A DNA stretch of 64,000 nt. It comes from Bordetella pertussis 18323 (GTDB lineage: Bacteria; Pseudomonadota; Gammaproteobacteria; Burkholderiales; Burkholderiaceae_B). The translations under genes and the position numbers were made by a program. The stretch lies in NCBI RefSeq assembly GCF_000306945.1, contig NC_018518.1, positions 868,001 through 932,000 on the forward strand. The letters are read 5' to 3'. Positions 6,186 to 32,013 of the stretch are shown here, piece by piece. A model generated the notes under the pieces. It was not told the DNA's origin. It saw nothing but the letters and a program-made list of their open reading frames with translations, and searched no databases. Numbering within the stretch: the first letter of the stretch is position 1; each line of letters opens with the position of its first letter.

Positions 6186-6282
6186 CCGGCCGGGCTCCTT
6201 GAGTGAACTGGGGGGTTGGCGATTTCCAGTTTCTCAAATCCGGTTCGGATGAACCATGCATACAACCTATTGAATCTTCACA
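5240..6282 (-). mobile_element. IS481, copy 1
   Basis: A complete 1043-bp element. The ends are imperfect inverted repeats beginning TGTGAA (left TGTGAACTGTCAATAGG, right TGTGAAGATTCAATAGG, both going on to TTGTAT). The flanks are TCTAGG on the left and ACTAGC on the right. IS481 is known to duplicate a 6-bp NCTAGN target, so these unequal flanks are not one clean duplication and point to recombination between two IS481 copies. At offset 977 (base 6217) this copy has T, where the tandem copies have C. Confidence 0.97.
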
Positions 6283-11768: not shown

Positions 11769-12146
11769 TCACGCCTCCAGGCGGTCGAGCCAGTTCGTCA
11801 GGCCCAGCACCGCCAGGCGCAACGCCGCTGCGTCGAGCGAGCGTTCGGGCAGTCGTGTCTGCGCGACGATCCAGTCCTCGCTGCCCTCCGACCAGAGTGA
11901 CGTCTGGATGGATGCGGCGCTTCCGCGCTGCCCATGGGCCCGTTTCCATGCCGCCAGCAACACGGAGGCGGCGTCGCGCTCGACCCGCTGGGCCAGGTGG
12001 ACCAGGGCCGCGCCGGCGACGCATTCGACGCCCAGGCGGCGCCCGTTGGACAGCGCCAGCGACGCCGATCCGGACGGCCCGAATGCCAGGCCCTCGATGC
12101 CGATATCCTGGCCGAACTGATGCAGCGCCCTATCGGCAGTATTCAT
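11769..12146 (-). CDS. T3SS chaperone, SycN-type, probable BopN partner
   Basis: A 125-residue CesT-fold chaperone. It shows the N-terminal helix (ALHQFGQDIGIEGLAFG), a strand bearing residues that report substrate (SASLALSNGRRLGVE) and a C-terminal helix. Its ATG overlaps the bopN stop by 4 bases. In Yersinia the corresponding gene encodes SycN, which escorts the YopN gatekeeper, so I infer that BopN is its client. Confidence 0.75.
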   Translation of the reverse strand: MNTADRALHQFGQDIGIEGLAFGPSGSASLALSNGRRLGVECVAGAALVHLAQRVERDAASVLLAAWKRAHGQRGSAASIQTSLWSEGSEDWIVAQTRLPERSLDAAALRLAVLGLTNWLDRLEA

Positions 12147-13240
12147 GCGTTCTCCATTGCTATCGCGTTGTCCAGCGTGTCCTGCGCGGCCGCCAGGACG
12201 GTGGCGCGCACGTCCATGTCGGCGTAGATCTGCGTGGGCAGGTCTTTGAGAATCTGGCGTACGCCACCGAGGAATGCGATGCGCTCGGAGAGGGCATTCG
12301 CGCCGTGGCGCTCGGCCAGCTTCTCGAAGCGCGCGGGCGCAATCCATTTGTCCTCGCTGATTCCCACAAGATCGCGCATCAGGCCCTGGGCGTCCGCACA
12401 CTCCTGCGAGCCTGCGTTGCCCAACCGTTGTTTCAGGGCATTGCATTCCTCCAGTACCGTGGCGGCCACCTCGACTTGATAGAGATCGCTCGCCAACACT
12501 TGCAGCCTGACGCCGTCCGTCGACGGTGTCGCCGCGGCCAGGTCGTGTCCCAGCGCCTGAATCAGCGCGCCCAGCGCGCCGTGGATGTCGTCGTTCCCAT
12601 AGCGTTCCAGCACCAGGTCCAGCGTGCGCGCCAACGACAGCTGGCCCAGGGCGATGTCGCGGTACGCGTGCTGGAAGCCGGCCAGCTCGTCAGCGGAACG
12701 CGCGAATGCGCCGGCCGTGGGCAGGGTGTTGATGCCGGCGCGGATTTCGGGGCCATGGGCGAGCTCCAGGTCGGCCAATGCATCGCGCAGGGCTTCGAGC
12801 GCGTGCGGCGCGGCGTCCTCGTGCTCGCCGCGCTGCAGCGCGTGCTGCAGCGCGAGGTATTGCTGCGTGACACCGGGAAACGCTTGCGCGGCCAGCTGCA
12901 TGGGGGCGCCCCGGCCGCGCAGCAGCTCGGCGGTCAGGGCTTCCAGTTTTGCCTGCGCGTCGGGGTCGTGGGTGTGGGAAAACAGTTCCGCAAGCTGCGC
13001 CGCGTCCAGCCAGAGCATCGGACGTTCGGCCGTGACCTTGCGTTCGGAGTGATGCTTTTCCTCGGCAGCCTGCGCCATGTGCAGGCTGAGCTCCTCGGCC
13101 GCGTCCGCCAGCGATATGCCGGTGGGCGCCGGTGCGATGCGCTGGCCTTGCAGCCAGCCGGAGGAGGTGTTGGCCGAGGCGTCGTGGCGCCCCTGCATGG
13201 CGGCGTGGAAGGGATTGGGGGCGGCATCGATACGAGTCAT
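12143..13240 (-). CDS. bopN: BopN, T3SS gatekeeper and effector (SctW)
   Basis: Gatekeeper of the YopN/InvE/SctW family, 365 residues. It controls the switch from translocators to effectors at the export gate and in Bordetella is also secreted. The first 60 residues are Ser/Thr/Ala-rich, as in secretion signals; the rest is helical, with a HrpJ-like domain (about 60-230) and a TyeA-like end (about 270-365, NALKQRLGNAGSQECADAQG). The ATG at 13240 follows GAGGACTCCCC. It is the first gene of the minus-strand operon, divergent from bsp22 with 163 bases between, and it has a candidate BtrS-type promoter. Confidence 0.93.
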   Translation of the reverse strand: MTRIDAAPNPFHAAMQGRHDASANTSSGWLQGQRIAPAPTGISLADAAEELSLHMAQAAEEKHHSERKVTAERPMLWLDAAQLAELFSHTHDPDAQAKLEALTAELLRGRGAPMQLAAQAFPGVTQQYLALQHALQRGEHEDAAPHALEALRDALADLELAHGPEIRAGINTLPTAGAFARSADELAGFQHAYRDIALGQLSLARTLDLVLERYGNDDIHGALGALIQALGHDLAAATPSTDGVRLQVLASDLYQVEVAATVLEECNALKQRLGNAGSQECADAQGLMRDLVGISEDKWIAPARFEKLAERHGANALSERIAFLGGVRQILKDLPTQIYADMDVRATVLAAAQDTLDNAIAMENA

Positions 13241-13282
13241 GGGGAGTCCTCGGAGAAGGAACCATTTGCCTACTGGTGCAGT

Positions 13283-13309
13283 GAGTGTCGCGCGCGCGGT
13301 CATGGTTCC
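13283..13309 (-). promoter_or_regulatory. Candidate BtrS (ECF) promoter of the bopN operon
   Basis: Reading the minus strand, GGAAC (13309-13305) is followed after 15 bases by GACACTC (13289-13283). The layout is that of ECF sigma promoters, whose -35 element is typically GGAAC. The same arrangement occurs before bsp22 and btrA. The distance to the bopN start allows a leader of about 36 bases. Confidence 0.5.
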
Positions 13310-13344
13310 CGGAAACGGGCGCGATATTGGGCAATTCGCAGCCT

Positions 13345-13372
13345 GGAACTTGCCGCGGGCGCAGGGTTACTC
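13345..13372 (+). promoter_or_regulatory. Candidate BtrS (ECF) promoter of the bsp22 operon
   Basis: GGAAC (13345-13349) is followed after 16 bases by GTTACTC (13366-13372), and the ATG of bsp22 lies 32 bases further on. The -35 elements of this and the bopN candidate are 35 bases apart and back to back, so one regulator could drive both T3SS operons. Confidence 0.5.
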
Positions 13373-13403
13373 AGCATGCGTCTTTCAACTCGAAGGAGCT
13401 CTC

Positions 13404-14021
13404 ATGAGCATTGATCTCGGAGTTTCACTCACGTCGCAGGCCGGCGGCCTGCAAGGCATCGACCTCAAGAGCATGGATATCCAGACTCTCATGGTGTATG
13501 TGCAGGGTCGTCGCGCCGAACTCCTCACGGCTCAAATGCAGACCCAGGCCGAAGTGGTGCAGAAGGCCAATGAACGCATGGCGCAGCTCAACGAGGTCCT
13601 GTCCGCGCTGTCCCGGGCCAAGGCCGAGTTTCCGCCCAATCCGAAGCCGGGCGACACCATCCCGGGCTGGGACAGCCAGAAGATCAGCCGGATCGAGGTT
13701 CCTCTCAATGATGCGCTGCGTGCCGCCGGCCTGACGGGCATGTTCGAAGCGCGCGATGGCCGGGTGACCGGCCCCGACGGCCGGGGTACGCAGGTCGTGA
13801 ACGGCACGGGCGTCATGGCCGGTTCCACGACCTATAAGGAACTCGAAAGTGCCTACACCACCGTAAAGGGGATGCTGGATACGGCGTCCAATACGCAACA
13901 GATGGACATGATCAGGCTGCAGGCCGCCAGCAACAAGCGCAACGAGGCTTTCGAGGTCATGACCAACACCGAGAAGCGGCGCAGCGACTTGAACAGCTCC
14001 ATCACCAGCAACATGCGCTAA
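13404..14021 (+). CDS. bsp22: Bsp22, T3SS filament/needle-tip protein
   Basis: The abundant secreted Bordetella T3SS protein, 205 residues (about 22 kDa), that forms a flexible filament on the needle tip and links to the translocators. No signal peptide. Helical N terminus (DIQTLMVYVQGRRAELLTAQ), a Gly-rich middle (VTGPDGRGTQVVNGTG) and a coiled-coil C terminus, the pattern of tip proteins and flagellin-like filaments. AAGGAG lies seven bases before the ATG. It leads the plus-strand operon. Confidence 0.95.
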   Translation: MSIDLGVSLTSQAGGLQGIDLKSMDIQTLMVYVQGRRAELLTAQMQTQAEVVQKANERMAQLNEVLSALSRAKAEFPPNPKPGDTIPGWDSQKISRIEVPLNDALRAAGLTGMFEARDGRVTGPDGRGTQVVNGTGVMAGSTTYKELESAYTTVKGMLDTASNTQQMDMIRLQAASNKRNEAFEVMTNTEKRRSDLNSSITSNMR

Positions 14022-29014: not shown

Positions 29015-29617
29015 CTACGGCACGCTGTCGTAGCCTCGTTCGCGCAGCGCTTCGCGCAAGGCACAGCGGGCGCGGGAAAGTCGGCTGCGAATGGTTCCTA
29101 CAGGAACCGAAAGCAGTGCGGCAGCCTCTTCATAGGAGAGTTCTTCCACGCCGACCATGAGGATCACGTCGCGCATGCTTTCGGGGAGCTGCTCCAGCGC
29201 TTCGCGTAGCAAGCGCATGCGTTGACGCTGCTCGGTCACGGCTTCGGGGTTGGGCGCACTGCATGGCATGACACCCAGGCTGGCGTCGGAGGTGAATTCA
29301 TAACGGCGCTCTGGCGCACGCGACAAGTGATTGCGGACCAGATTGAGCGCGATGCCGTACAGCCAGGTGGAAAGCTGGGAGTCGCCACGGAACGATTGAT
29401 ACGCGCGCGCCGCCTCGGCGAAAGCCTGCTGCGCAAGGTCCTCGACGTCGCTGCTGTGGCCGATGTGCTTGGCGATGAATCTCTGTAATCGGCCGGCATG
29501 TTCGGCTACCAGGCTGCTCAGCAACTGCTGGTCCGATCGCTCGGTGGCGATATCGGGATATGCGTTGTCCGGTTTTTCGAGAGAAGCGGGAAGACCGGAT
29601 GACGGGGGAGAAACCAT
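29015..29617 (-). CDS. btrS: BtrS (BrpL), ECF sigma factor for T3SS genes
   Basis: Extracytoplasmic-function sigma factor, 200 residues, the direct activator of the bsc and bop operons in Bordetella (called BrpL in B. pertussis). Region 2 (about 25-95) has the core-binding helix DVEDLAQQAFAEAARAYQSF. Region 4 (about 130-190) has the helix-turn-helix YEEAAALLSVPVGTIRSRLS. ATG at 29617 is chosen; an in-frame TTG at 29632 would add five residues. It lies downstream of btrA on the same strand. Confidence 0.95.
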   Translation of the reverse strand: MVSPPSSGLPASLEKPDNAYPDIATERSDQQLLSSLVAEHAGRLQRFIAKHIGHSSDVEDLAQQAFAEAARAYQSFRGDSQLSTWLYGIALNLVRNHLSRAPERRYEFTSDASLGVMPCSAPNPEAVTEQRQRMRLLREALEQLPESMRDVILMVGVEELSYEEAAALLSVPVGTIRSRLSRARCALREALRERGYDSVP

Positions 29618-29667
29618 GCAAAGCGATACCAAGTGAAAGGGTGATAATTCACGTCACCAAGATACTG

Positions 29668-29689
29668 ACTGCCGGTTTTATCCGGCAGT
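29668..29689. terminator. Hairpin between btrA and btrS
   Basis: ACTGCCGG and CCGGCAGT are perfect 8-bp arms around TTTTAT. In the direction of btrA-btrS transcription no U-rich run follows, so it is a weak terminator at best. It could attenuate read-through from btrA into the sigma factor gene or protect an RNA end. Confidence 0.4.
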
Positions 29690-29791
29690 TGTTAACTTCC
29701 GAAACTAATGTCGGATCGCGGTCGCTACCGGAGCATTCAGATACAACGCGCTGAACGTCTTCCGTAAAACTTACGACGCGACGTATGGGGA

Positions 29792-30367
29792 CTACACCAG
29801 GTGGTGCGCAAGGACCTCGCGCAACCATTCTTGCGCCGTATGGGCGGATACCGGCGCCTTACCTGATTGTGCGGCGGATGCGAAGCGCTGCTGCATGCTT
29901 TCGTCGATCGTGGCGCGCAACGTTCCGGATATCTGATCGGGAGAGACACCGGTGTCGTGACAGACCTGTCGGAAGCCGGCGGCGTCGGCGCGGGCCGACC
30001 AGGACAGGAAGGTAAGGAAATCCACGCCCTGCAGGGCGTGGCGTGAGGTTTCCGCCATGTCGACCGCTCGCGTGACGACGCGCGCCGACAGCGATGTCGT
30101 CGGGACCGCGTGCAGATCGAGCTCCTTGGCGACGGCGCGGGCGATTCCCGTGCCGTAGGCCAGCGCCAGCGCGCTGGAAAACATGACAAGCGTGTCCTCG
30201 TCGGTGGCGACCCAGGATACGTTGCGCCCTGACGGCGTCGTGCCGGATGCGATGACCTGGAACTGCTCGCCTGCTTTGGTGACATATAGGGTCTCTCCTT
30301 GGCTGGCGGCGCGCGCAAAGACATCAAGCTCCAAAGCAGGTAAAGCGGGTGGGATCTGGAAGTTCAT
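29792..30367 (-). CDS. btrA: BtrA (BspR), secreted anti-sigma regulator of T3SS
   Basis: A 191-residue protein, known in B. bronchiseptica as BspR or BtrA, that represses T3SS genes by binding BtrS and is itself exported through the injectisome, linking secretion to expression. No signal peptide and no DNA-binding motif; the N terminus (NFQIPPALPALELDVFARAA) is as expected for a T3SS export signal, and the rest is helical. It is upstream of btrS with 174 bases between. A candidate BtrS promoter lies upstream, which would make a feedback loop. Confidence 0.9.
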   Translation of the reverse strand: MNFQIPPALPALELDVFARAASQGETLYVTKAGEQFQVIASGTTPSGRNVSWVATDEDTLVMFSSALALAYGTGIARAVAKELDLHAVPTTSLSARVVTRAVDMAETSRHALQGVDFLTFLSWSARADAAGFRQVCHDTGVSPDQISGTLRATIDESMQQRFASAAQSGKAPVSAHTAQEWLREVLAHHLV

Positions 30368-30436
30368 GCGGTGGGCCGTTGTCTCGAATCCTTGGGTGTA
30401 TCGCGTTCTACGGAGCGGGAACATGGAATATGCACT

Positions 30437-30463
30437 GTGTGACGCTTTCGGCTCTTCGGTTCC
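30437..30463 (-). promoter_or_regulatory. Candidate BtrS promoter of btrA
   Basis: Reading the minus strand, GGAAC (30463-30459) then 15 bases then GTCACAC (30443-30437), the same layout as upstream of bopN. The leader to the btrA ATG would be about 63 bases. A weaker match on the plus strand (GGAAC at 30418, GTGACGC at 30439) points to the divergent ligase gene and shares the same -10 bases. Confidence 0.42.
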
Positions 30464-30526
30464 ATGCCGGCATGACAAACCCGACGGCATGCAGGCCTCG
30501 CTCCCGTCCGGCCACCGAGGCTCGCC

Positions 30527-32013
30527 TTGAACGCTGCGCAAAGTGTCGGCCATACGCTGGGCCTCGAGCTGGAAATGGTGGTGGCCTGTCGTGCGACCGG
30601 GGCCAGCCATCCGGTGGCGCGCCATTTCGAAGCGCTGCGCAACTTGCGCCGTCAACGCGGAGAGTCCGTGCAGGAGTACCGTCTGGACGCGCGCCTGTGC
30701 GGGGGGTGGGCGGTCCCCATGGCCTGAGCGGGCTTGATAACGGCTATAACCTGCTCGAAACCGCATTCGCGCCTGTGAACGGCGGCGCGGGAGGGCTGCG
30801 CCGACTGGCCGAAGCGGTGCGCCGCGAGCTGCGTGACACGCAGCTCGCCCTGGCCGCGGAGGGGGCGATGCTGATCAACGCGGCCGAGCACCCCGCCGCC
30901 AGCCTGGATGCCGACTGGTACCGGCGAGTGCGGGTGCCGCGGCCCATCTACGAGGAACTCGTCGGCCAGCGAGGCTGGCTGCACCGGATCGGGATAGACG
31001 CCAAGGCACAGAACAGCCCCTGCACGTCGGTTCCCGTGGCCATCGCCGCGCGCTGCCTGAACGTCGTGCTGGCGCTGGCTCCCGCGCAGATCGCCATGTT
31101 CGCCAACAGCCCGCTGGAGGCAGGGCGGGTGACCGGTCTCAAGGAAAACCGCCTGACCCTGTGGCCGCGCATGTTCCGAGGCGCGCGCTACCTGGGCGAC
31201 GACCTGCTGCATCGCCTGCCTGCAAGGCCGTTTCGCGATCTCGGCGATTATTTCCGCTGGATGTTCGGCGGATTGACCGCCAGCCGGGCGCTACCGCCGG
31301 GCGACGCTTGCGACTACAAGAACGCCGATGTGGCCTGCCTGGTGGGAGCCCCTTCGCTGGCAGAGTTCCTGTATGCGGGCGCGTGGTCCGCGCGAAACCT
31401 GAATGATGGCGGTTCCGTGCGTCTGGCCGCGCGCAGCGAACATTTCGTCTATTCGCAGTTCGCGCAGTTCCTGGACGCGCGTTGGCGCTACAGGATGCCG
31501 ATTGTCCCCGCCTTGCCGGCGCTGTTGCGAGCCTGGGACAGGCAGGGCGGCCTGGAAGCGCTGTTCGAGCAGGCCGGCGCGCAAGGCTACATCGAGGGGC
31601 GCGCGCCGGGCGCGGTATTTGCCGATGCCGACTTGCTGAGCTCAGCCGGCGATGCAGTCGCGGCCAGTGCGCCGATGGCGGCGTCGGCGCTGCAATTGGG
31701 GCTGTTGCGCAATCTGCACGACGCCGAGGCCCTGGTGAGGCGATGGGGCTGGCTGCGCTTGCGTGCGTTGCGCGATCGGGCCATCGCTTTGGCGTTGGAC
31801 GATGCGCAGGTGCGCTGCCTTTGCCAACAGGTCGTGGCGGTAGCCGAAGGCGGGCTGGCCGGCGACGAGCAGCAATGGCTCGATTATGTGCGTTACGTGG
31901 TGGAAACCGGCGAGACCGCCGCGGACCGCATGCTGCGCTTGTGGCGCCAGGCGCGCGGCACGCCTGAGATGCGCCGCGCACAGGCGTGCCGGCAGCGCGC
32001 GGTGCTGTCCTAG
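30527..32013 (+). pseudogene. Glutamate-cysteine-ligase-like (GCS2) gene, frameshifted
   Basis: Residues encoded from TTG at 30527 (VGHTLGLELEMVVACRATGA ... SVQEYRLDARLCGG) look like the N terminus of a GCS2/carboxylate-amine ligase. The same protein resumes in the next frame (GLDNGYNLLETAFAPVNGG) and runs to TAG at 32013. The break lies in or near GCGGGGGGTGGG at about 30699-30712; loss of one G explains it. Joined, the protein has about 495 residues. GAGG precedes the TTG. The enzyme would ligate an amino acid to a glutamate or similar carboxylate. The gene is divergent from btrA. The fault is either decay or a variable G tract. Confidence 0.72.

Follow-up and report, generated by a model that had tools for sequence, protein, structure and literature searches.

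A conserved ECF-type promoter box at bsp22, bopN and btrA as the probable recognition sequence of BtrS in the Bordetella type III secretion locus

The sequences upstream of bsp22, bopN and btrA in the type III secretion system (T3SS) locus of Bordetella pertussis 18323 share a two-block element, GGAAC-N15/16-GWYACWC. Judged by sequence comparison, these three sites are very probably ECF promoters read by RNA polymerase carrying the sigma factor BtrS, the gene for the anti-sigma factor BtrA included. The box is conserved with fixed spacing, tracks the genomes that hold both BtrS and Bsp22, and recurs with one mismatch at the bteA start, and these findings support the suggestion of an earlier note on this DNA that it is the BtrS recognition sequence. 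From the same comparisons we infer binding by BtrS, the exact transcript starts and the dynamics of the resulting loop. That the Bordetella T3SS has a sigma factor of its own is established knowledge (Mattoo 2004, cited by PMC7498569). Under its other name, BrpL (PMC7498569), it is reported to be needed by a set of genes that includes those with the box (PMC7498569, PMC7253368), and the genes from bscN to bsp22 and from bopN to orf2 require it (PMC7498569). The available text of PMC7498569 and PMC7253368 gives this dependence and no recognition sequence, and searches of open-licence papers found no statement of the box sequence for BtrS. Control of these genes by BtrS is already in print.

In the window, which here means the whole 64,000-nucleotide (64 kb) stretch analysed, the predicted bsp22 promoter lies on the plus strand at 13345..13372, with the -35 block GGAAC at 13345-13349, a spacer of 16, the -10 block GTTACTC at 13366-13372 and an A at 13373. 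The predicted bopN promoter (13283..13309, minus strand) consists of GGAAC at 13309-13305, a spacer of 15 and GACACTC at 13289-13283, followed by an A at 13282, while the predicted btrA promoter (30437..30463, minus strand) has GGAAC at 30463-30459, a spacer of 15, GTCACAC at 30443-30437 and an A at 30436. From the -10 block to the start codon, the gap is 31 nt at bsp22 (ATG 13404), 42 nt at bopN (ATG 13240) and 69 nt at btrA (ATG 30367). The earlier note had given the sites these positions, letters and spacers, and had described them as ECF-like in form, at sensible distances from the starts and, for bsp22 and bopN, back to back; a re-read of the window bears out this description throughout, with two blocks at a fixed spacer upstream of each gene. 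By analogy with bteA, the bsp22 transcript is predicted to begin near 13380 (+), and the predicted 5′ ends of bopN and btrA fall near 13275 (-) and 30429 (-).

GGAAC-N15/16-GWYACWC matches three times in the window, against a mean of 0.01 expected from 100 dinucleotide shuffles, none of which held three matches. The whole 4.04 Mb genome contains five matches and none to the reversed pattern. The remaining two genome matches, at 428420 (minus strand, L001) and 3077277 (plus strand, L005), score 10.9 and 12.5 with a matrix built from relatives, and both are without the A that comes after the -10 block in the bsp22, bopN and btrA sites. The btrA-side and bsp22-side sites of relatives yield a sharper form, GGAACY-N14/15-GTTACTCA. 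A loose form, GGAACYN16/17ACNCA, was rejected because it gave 10 matches in this genome compared with 16 for its reversed control and so is not specific.

The first gene past the rightward promoter, bsp22 (13404..14021, plus strand), is an open reading frame for the tip filament protein, and bopN (12143..13240, minus strand) encodes an SctW/LcrE gatekeeper with HrpJ and TyeA domains and a match to the SctW/LcrE model. The btrA gene, also called bspR (29792..30367, minus strand), encodes a T3SS anti-sigma factor (NCBIfam NF052467, 237.9 bits against a cut-off of 160) of 191 aa, a length that agrees with PMC3372540. The ECF sigma factor gene btrS (29015..29632, minus strand) has Sigma70_r2 and r4_2 domains and a TIGR02937 match above cut-off; among NCBIfam models, the 25 listed as its best matches describe ECF sigmas in general or the RpoE/SigX type. 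The gene names agree with RT-PCR primers published for bsp22, bopN, btrS and bteA (PMC3372540), which map into the expected genes, those for bteA into L018, seven of the eight without mismatch and one btrS primer with a single mismatch. The btrS gene follows btrA on the minus strand after a gap of 159 bp, so the btrA promoter could also feed btrS. A scan of this gap found no terminator-like site, though a 7 bp inverted repeat that lacks a T run is visible there.

To follow the box in relatives, homologues were sought in 268 genomes of the family, and the loci fetched, one per genome, were searched for GGAAC-N15/16-GNYAC within 250 nt upstream of each gene. Bsp22 homologues occur in 34 of the 268 genomes, and of their fetched loci 27 of 29 have the box before bsp22 (missing at L024 and L048). 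It was found upstream of btrA at 26 of 27 loci (missing at L108) and upstream of bopN at all 15 loci with a visible bopN start, each of them a divergent pair with a facing site. These counts leave out three loci where the alignment did not come near the gene start (L027 for bopN; L087 and L094 for btrA), among which L027 shows a bopN site, L094 a btrA site and L087 none. The spacing is constrained: spacers from 10 to 23 other than 15 and 16 gave one match in all (btrA, spacer 23). The reversed pattern appeared upstream of bsp22 at 2 of 29 loci with spacer 15 and at up to 3 of 29 with other single spacers, and it was found nowhere upstream of bopN and btrA in the same relative loci.

A survey of named genomes, in which the best 39 of 69 loci were examined, gave a similar result for btrA. 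The gene is present at 25 of the 39 loci. At 23 of the 25, among them loci of Achromobacter, Castellaniella, Bordetella ansorpii and Bordetella genomospecies 1, 5 and 13, the site is retained upstream, between 31 and 92 nt from the aligned start. With this conservation, the negative feedback loop through btrA that had been proposed earlier holds at the level of sequence. Loss of the motif in other Bordetella with an active T3SS had been named as one observation that would tell against the BtrS reading; where genes of the btrA-bsp22 form of the locus are present, such a loss was not seen. BtrS-like sigmas without btrA make up the other 14 of the 39 named loci; the 15/16 box was absent near 13 of them, L148 being the one exception. 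In Bordetella hinzii and pseudohinzii no btrA adjoins the BtrS-like sigma, and no such box was found there.

Some of these loci show features of their own. At L140, L143 and L144, which have a BtrS-like sigma and no btrA, a looser scan revealed GGAAC-N14-GTTACAAA at the same place on the minus strand (about 2670-2705); this could be a short-spacer variant of the box. The Achromobacter loci L139, L142 and L145-L147 carry a BtrS-like sigma (48 to 54% identity) with no adjoining btrA and no clear box nearby, and some of these genomes also hold the btrA-linked sigma.

Copies of GGAACYN14/15GNYACTCA were counted in all 268 genomes, with the reversed pattern as control, and compared with the occurrence of BtrS and Bsp22. 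BtrS homologues were found at E 2.2e-44 or better in 42 of the 268 genomes, the next best matches lying at 3.6e-37. None of the 31 genomes with both BtrS and Bsp22 lacks the motif, and their mean is 4.06 copies, against 0.61 for the reversed control. Where a BtrS-like sigma occurs without Bsp22, in 11 genomes, the mean is 0.64 (control, 0.36), with at least one copy in 5; two genomes of this kind, G090 and G233, do have btrA. The 208 genomes without a BtrS-like sigma have a mean of 0.36 (control, 0.60), with at least one copy in 57, and 18 genomes from two genera, in which the sigma is more distant (36 to 45% identity), have a mean of 3.00 (control, 1.00). A Mann-Whitney comparison of the 42 with the 208 genomes gives p = 4e-19 (reversed control, p = 0.59), values that refer to related, non-independent genomes and to groups set after the BtrS scores had been seen. 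Three Bsp22 genomes have no BtrS match at that level, namely G116 (3 copies), G193 (1) and G235 (0), of which G116 and G235 are less than 90% complete.

These counts bear on the first alternative, that the sites are promoters of another ECF sigma, for example of RpoE type. A GGAAC block is common to several ECF sigmas and serves as the -35 element for RpoE-type and several other ECF groups, and candidate sigmas are plentiful: some sigma related to BtrS is matched at E 1e-20 or better in 247 of the 268 genomes, including 187 of the 208 without a BtrS-like sigma, these other matches probably being RpoE-type. Yet the 208 genomes show no motif excess over the reversed control although 187 of them have such a sigma, which argues that the motif does not belong to those sigmas, and the -10 block GTTACTCA differs from the RpoE -10 element. 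We consider another ECF sigma very unlikely. The reading as BtrS promoters has points against it as well: btcA has no box, the picture at btrM is ambiguous, and motif excess is slight in the 11 genomes whose BtrS-like sigma is not accompanied by Bsp22.

A second alternative, in our estimate also very unlikely, is that the element is an activator site or an operator beside a sigma-70 promoter rather than the promoter itself. The binder is not readable from the sequence, and Bvg control acts on the locus (PMC7498569). Against this, the two blocks keep a rigid spacing of 15/16 bp, always point the same way relative to the gene and lie no more than 250 nt from its start (31 to 92 nt at the named btrA loci), and a scan of 29600-30560, on the btrA side, found no sigma-70-like site there. 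The bteA 5′ end also lies 10 nt past the -10 block. This end was mapped to -68 by 5′-RACE (Han et al. 2011, PMC3053399), and bteA in the genome studied here has AGAAC at -102, 15 bases and then GTTACCAA, with one mismatch to the box and the C of its GTTAC 10 nt before the published start. CCTAAC occupies -142 to -137 of bteA here and is the target reported for an IS481 insertion at -136 (PMC3053399), an agreement that confirms the bteA locus and its numbering.

The same 5′-RACE study placed the btcA start at a T 31 nt before the start codon (PMC3053399). In this genome btcA (L109, G000:C1:278355-278747) has a CesT match below cut-off; GGAAC does not occur within 110 nt of the gene's start, and the mapped 5′ end shows nothing box-like. 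Its position -31 is A, not T, so that the start codon, the numbering or the strain differs. Within the 268 genomes, btcA, the presumed BteA chaperone gene, has no relative at E 1e-5 outside its own genome, so the observation of a box at bteA comes from this genome. We take bp0499, bp0500, bp2256 and bp2257 to be btcA, bteA, bsp22 and bopN. Together with bp2232 (btrM) and bp2233 (btrA) (PMC7498569), these genes are described by Coutte et al. 2020 as Bvg-activated, without a BvgA site and BrpL-regulated (PMC7253368). A genome scan compared with the BtrS regulon, the check proposed in the earlier note, agrees at bsp22, bopN and btrA, each with a full box, and at bteA with one mismatch, and does not agree at btcA, which has none, or at btrM, which has weak candidates only; a box at all six BrpL-listed genes was not found.

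The btrM gene (window 30527-32013, plus strand) contains a glutamate-cysteine ligase family 2 domain and seems to read in two frames: the leading one, of 66 aa (30527-30727), matches no family, and the main one begins at about 30733. The gene may be broken in this genome. One weak promoter candidate for it, GGAAC-N16-GTGACGC at 30418..30445 (plus strand), has a matrix score below 6; the 5 bp of its GTGAC (30439-30443), read on the opposite strand, are those of the btrA GTCAC. If real, this shared core would form an overlapping two-way ECF promoter for btrA and btrM. A facing site upstream of btrA was not found in 27 relative loci with a pattern that demanded A or G where the antisense of the candidate has C, and a looser, fairer pattern revealed none overlapping the btrA site in relatives either. 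A second weak candidate, GGAACT-N14-GTGACATA at 30259..30286 (plus strand), lies inside btrA on the opposite strand and is the fourth best matrix match in the window (16.1; 0.1 expected at 16 or above per shuffled window); it was not seen in relatives. Neither candidate is claimed as a btrM promoter.

The matrix used for these scores was built from 43 sites of relatives and none from this genome. Site picking fixed GGAAC, G..AC and, in 18 bsp22-side sites, the C at position 7, whereas the three T bases of GTTACT and the A at the end were left free. The final A is present in 43 of the 43 sites; one dropped site is without it. The bopN-side sites of relatives, which are outside the matrix, mostly have GTTACTA (GTTACTAC) as the -10 block. 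In the window, the three top-scoring positions are the bsp22 (25.6), btrA (19.8) and bopN (19.7) sites, whereas shuffled windows hold 0.02 matches each at 19.6 or above and none of 100 contains three. Elsewhere in the same genome, a site inside an apparent coding region (L011) scores 20.8, so the matrix is imperfect genome-wide. Single matches thus occur by chance, but a chance likeness of three G+C-rich intergenic sequences is of negligible probability and is refuted by conservation, with 0.01 matches expected in the window and the sites found again at these genes in 26 and 27 further genomes. A low-scoring sequence, GGAAAT-14-TTCACTCA, recurs at window positions 6227, 38775, 39824 and 48390 (-) and once in L018, presumably inside insertion sequence copies.

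If BtrS reads these sites, GGAAC would be the -35 element and, 15 or 16 bp from it, the GTTACTCA-like sequence the -10 element. The promoters of bopN and bsp22 would stand back to back, so that both transcripts would leave one intergenic region, and the btrA promoter would place synthesis of the anti-sigma under the control of the sigma that BtrA inhibits. As BtrA is exported by the T3SS (PMC7498569), the loop would be gated by secretion, holding BtrS down until secretion opens and leaving it most free while secretion runs. Contact between BtrA and BtrS has been reported from yeast two-hybrid and co-purification experiments, whereas an earlier GST pull-down saw none. B. pertussis RNA-seq data place btrS, btrA and bsp22/bopN in three different response groups (PMC7828420), which indicates that inputs beyond the BtrA-BtrS loop act too. 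The box offers an explanation of how bopN and bsp22 can be started together and would put the anti-sigma gene inside the loop.

Two known systems are close parallels. In the flagellar FliA-FlgM pair, the exported anti-sigma is made under its own sigma, and export releases the sigma. BtrS-BtrA would be the same in having an exported anti-sigma under the control of its own sigma, and differs in the anti-sigma family, in serving a T3SS injectisome rather than a flagellum and in using an ECF sigma rather than sigma-28. The second parallel is the hrp box, read by HrpL in the T3SS of Pseudomonas and related bacteria, with the consensus GGAACC-N15/16-CCACNNA. Both boxes have a -35 block of the form GGAAC(C), spacers of similar length and a -10 centred on CCAC/YAC, and HrpL is likewise an ECF sigma encoded beside a T3SS whose box marks T3SS, chaperone and effector genes. 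Set against this consensus, the Bordetella box has GGAAC in common, C or T as the sixth base and a -10 with YAC and a later A, but with GT in front. It further differs in that its -10 is GTTACTCA and not CCACNNA, in its occurrence in Betaproteobacteria and in that its sigma has an exported anti-sigma, BtrA. Examples of hrp boxes are listed in PMC2997014, Table 4.

The box is likely to be a family-wide mark of the T3SS regulon, a 'btr box', in Bordetella, Achromobacter and Castellaniella, pointing to T3SS chaperones and candidate injected proteins, some of them far from the main locus, and the exported anti-sigma loop, through the btrA site, is likewise likely to be a circuit conserved across the family and not confined to classical Bordetella. 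A defined recognition sequence would make the BtrS regulon readable from genomes and could be used to look for T3SS chaperones and substrates in relatives that have been little studied. A search with GGAACYN14/15GTYACTCA in eight genomes, chosen because they have many motif copies or the distant sigma, gave 35 matches in 7 of the 8, and the surroundings of 30 were retrieved. Downstream of 27 of the 30 sites, a frame of 100 aa or longer begins within 100 nt, compared with 15 of 30 on the other side and strand; L196, L200, L202 and L206 among the 30 are btrA or bsp22 sites.

Ten hand-chosen frames were compared with Pfam and NCBIfam, the genomes and frames both being the author's choice. No Pfam or NCBIfam match was found for L204, L205 and L208, and L201 has a very weak SicP match. 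CesT chaperones above cut-off follow the box at L198, far from btrS, and at L192, about 16 kb from btrS, and L194, far from btrS, encodes a SycD/LcrH-like TPR protein just under the NCBIfam cut-off. Ankyrin-repeat proteins are encoded at L180 (about 6 kb from btrS), L184 (where the site precedes the gene in G213) and L197. The genes past the boxes in these eight relatives fit a T3SS regulon and are a lead. The genomes with the more distant sigma are G141-G156, G213 and G214, and most of G141-G156 carry two sigma copies about 3 kb apart in opposite directions. The bsp22 gene, a single copy in this genome, is present as several tandem copies in many relatives (L020-L048), some with a box of their own.
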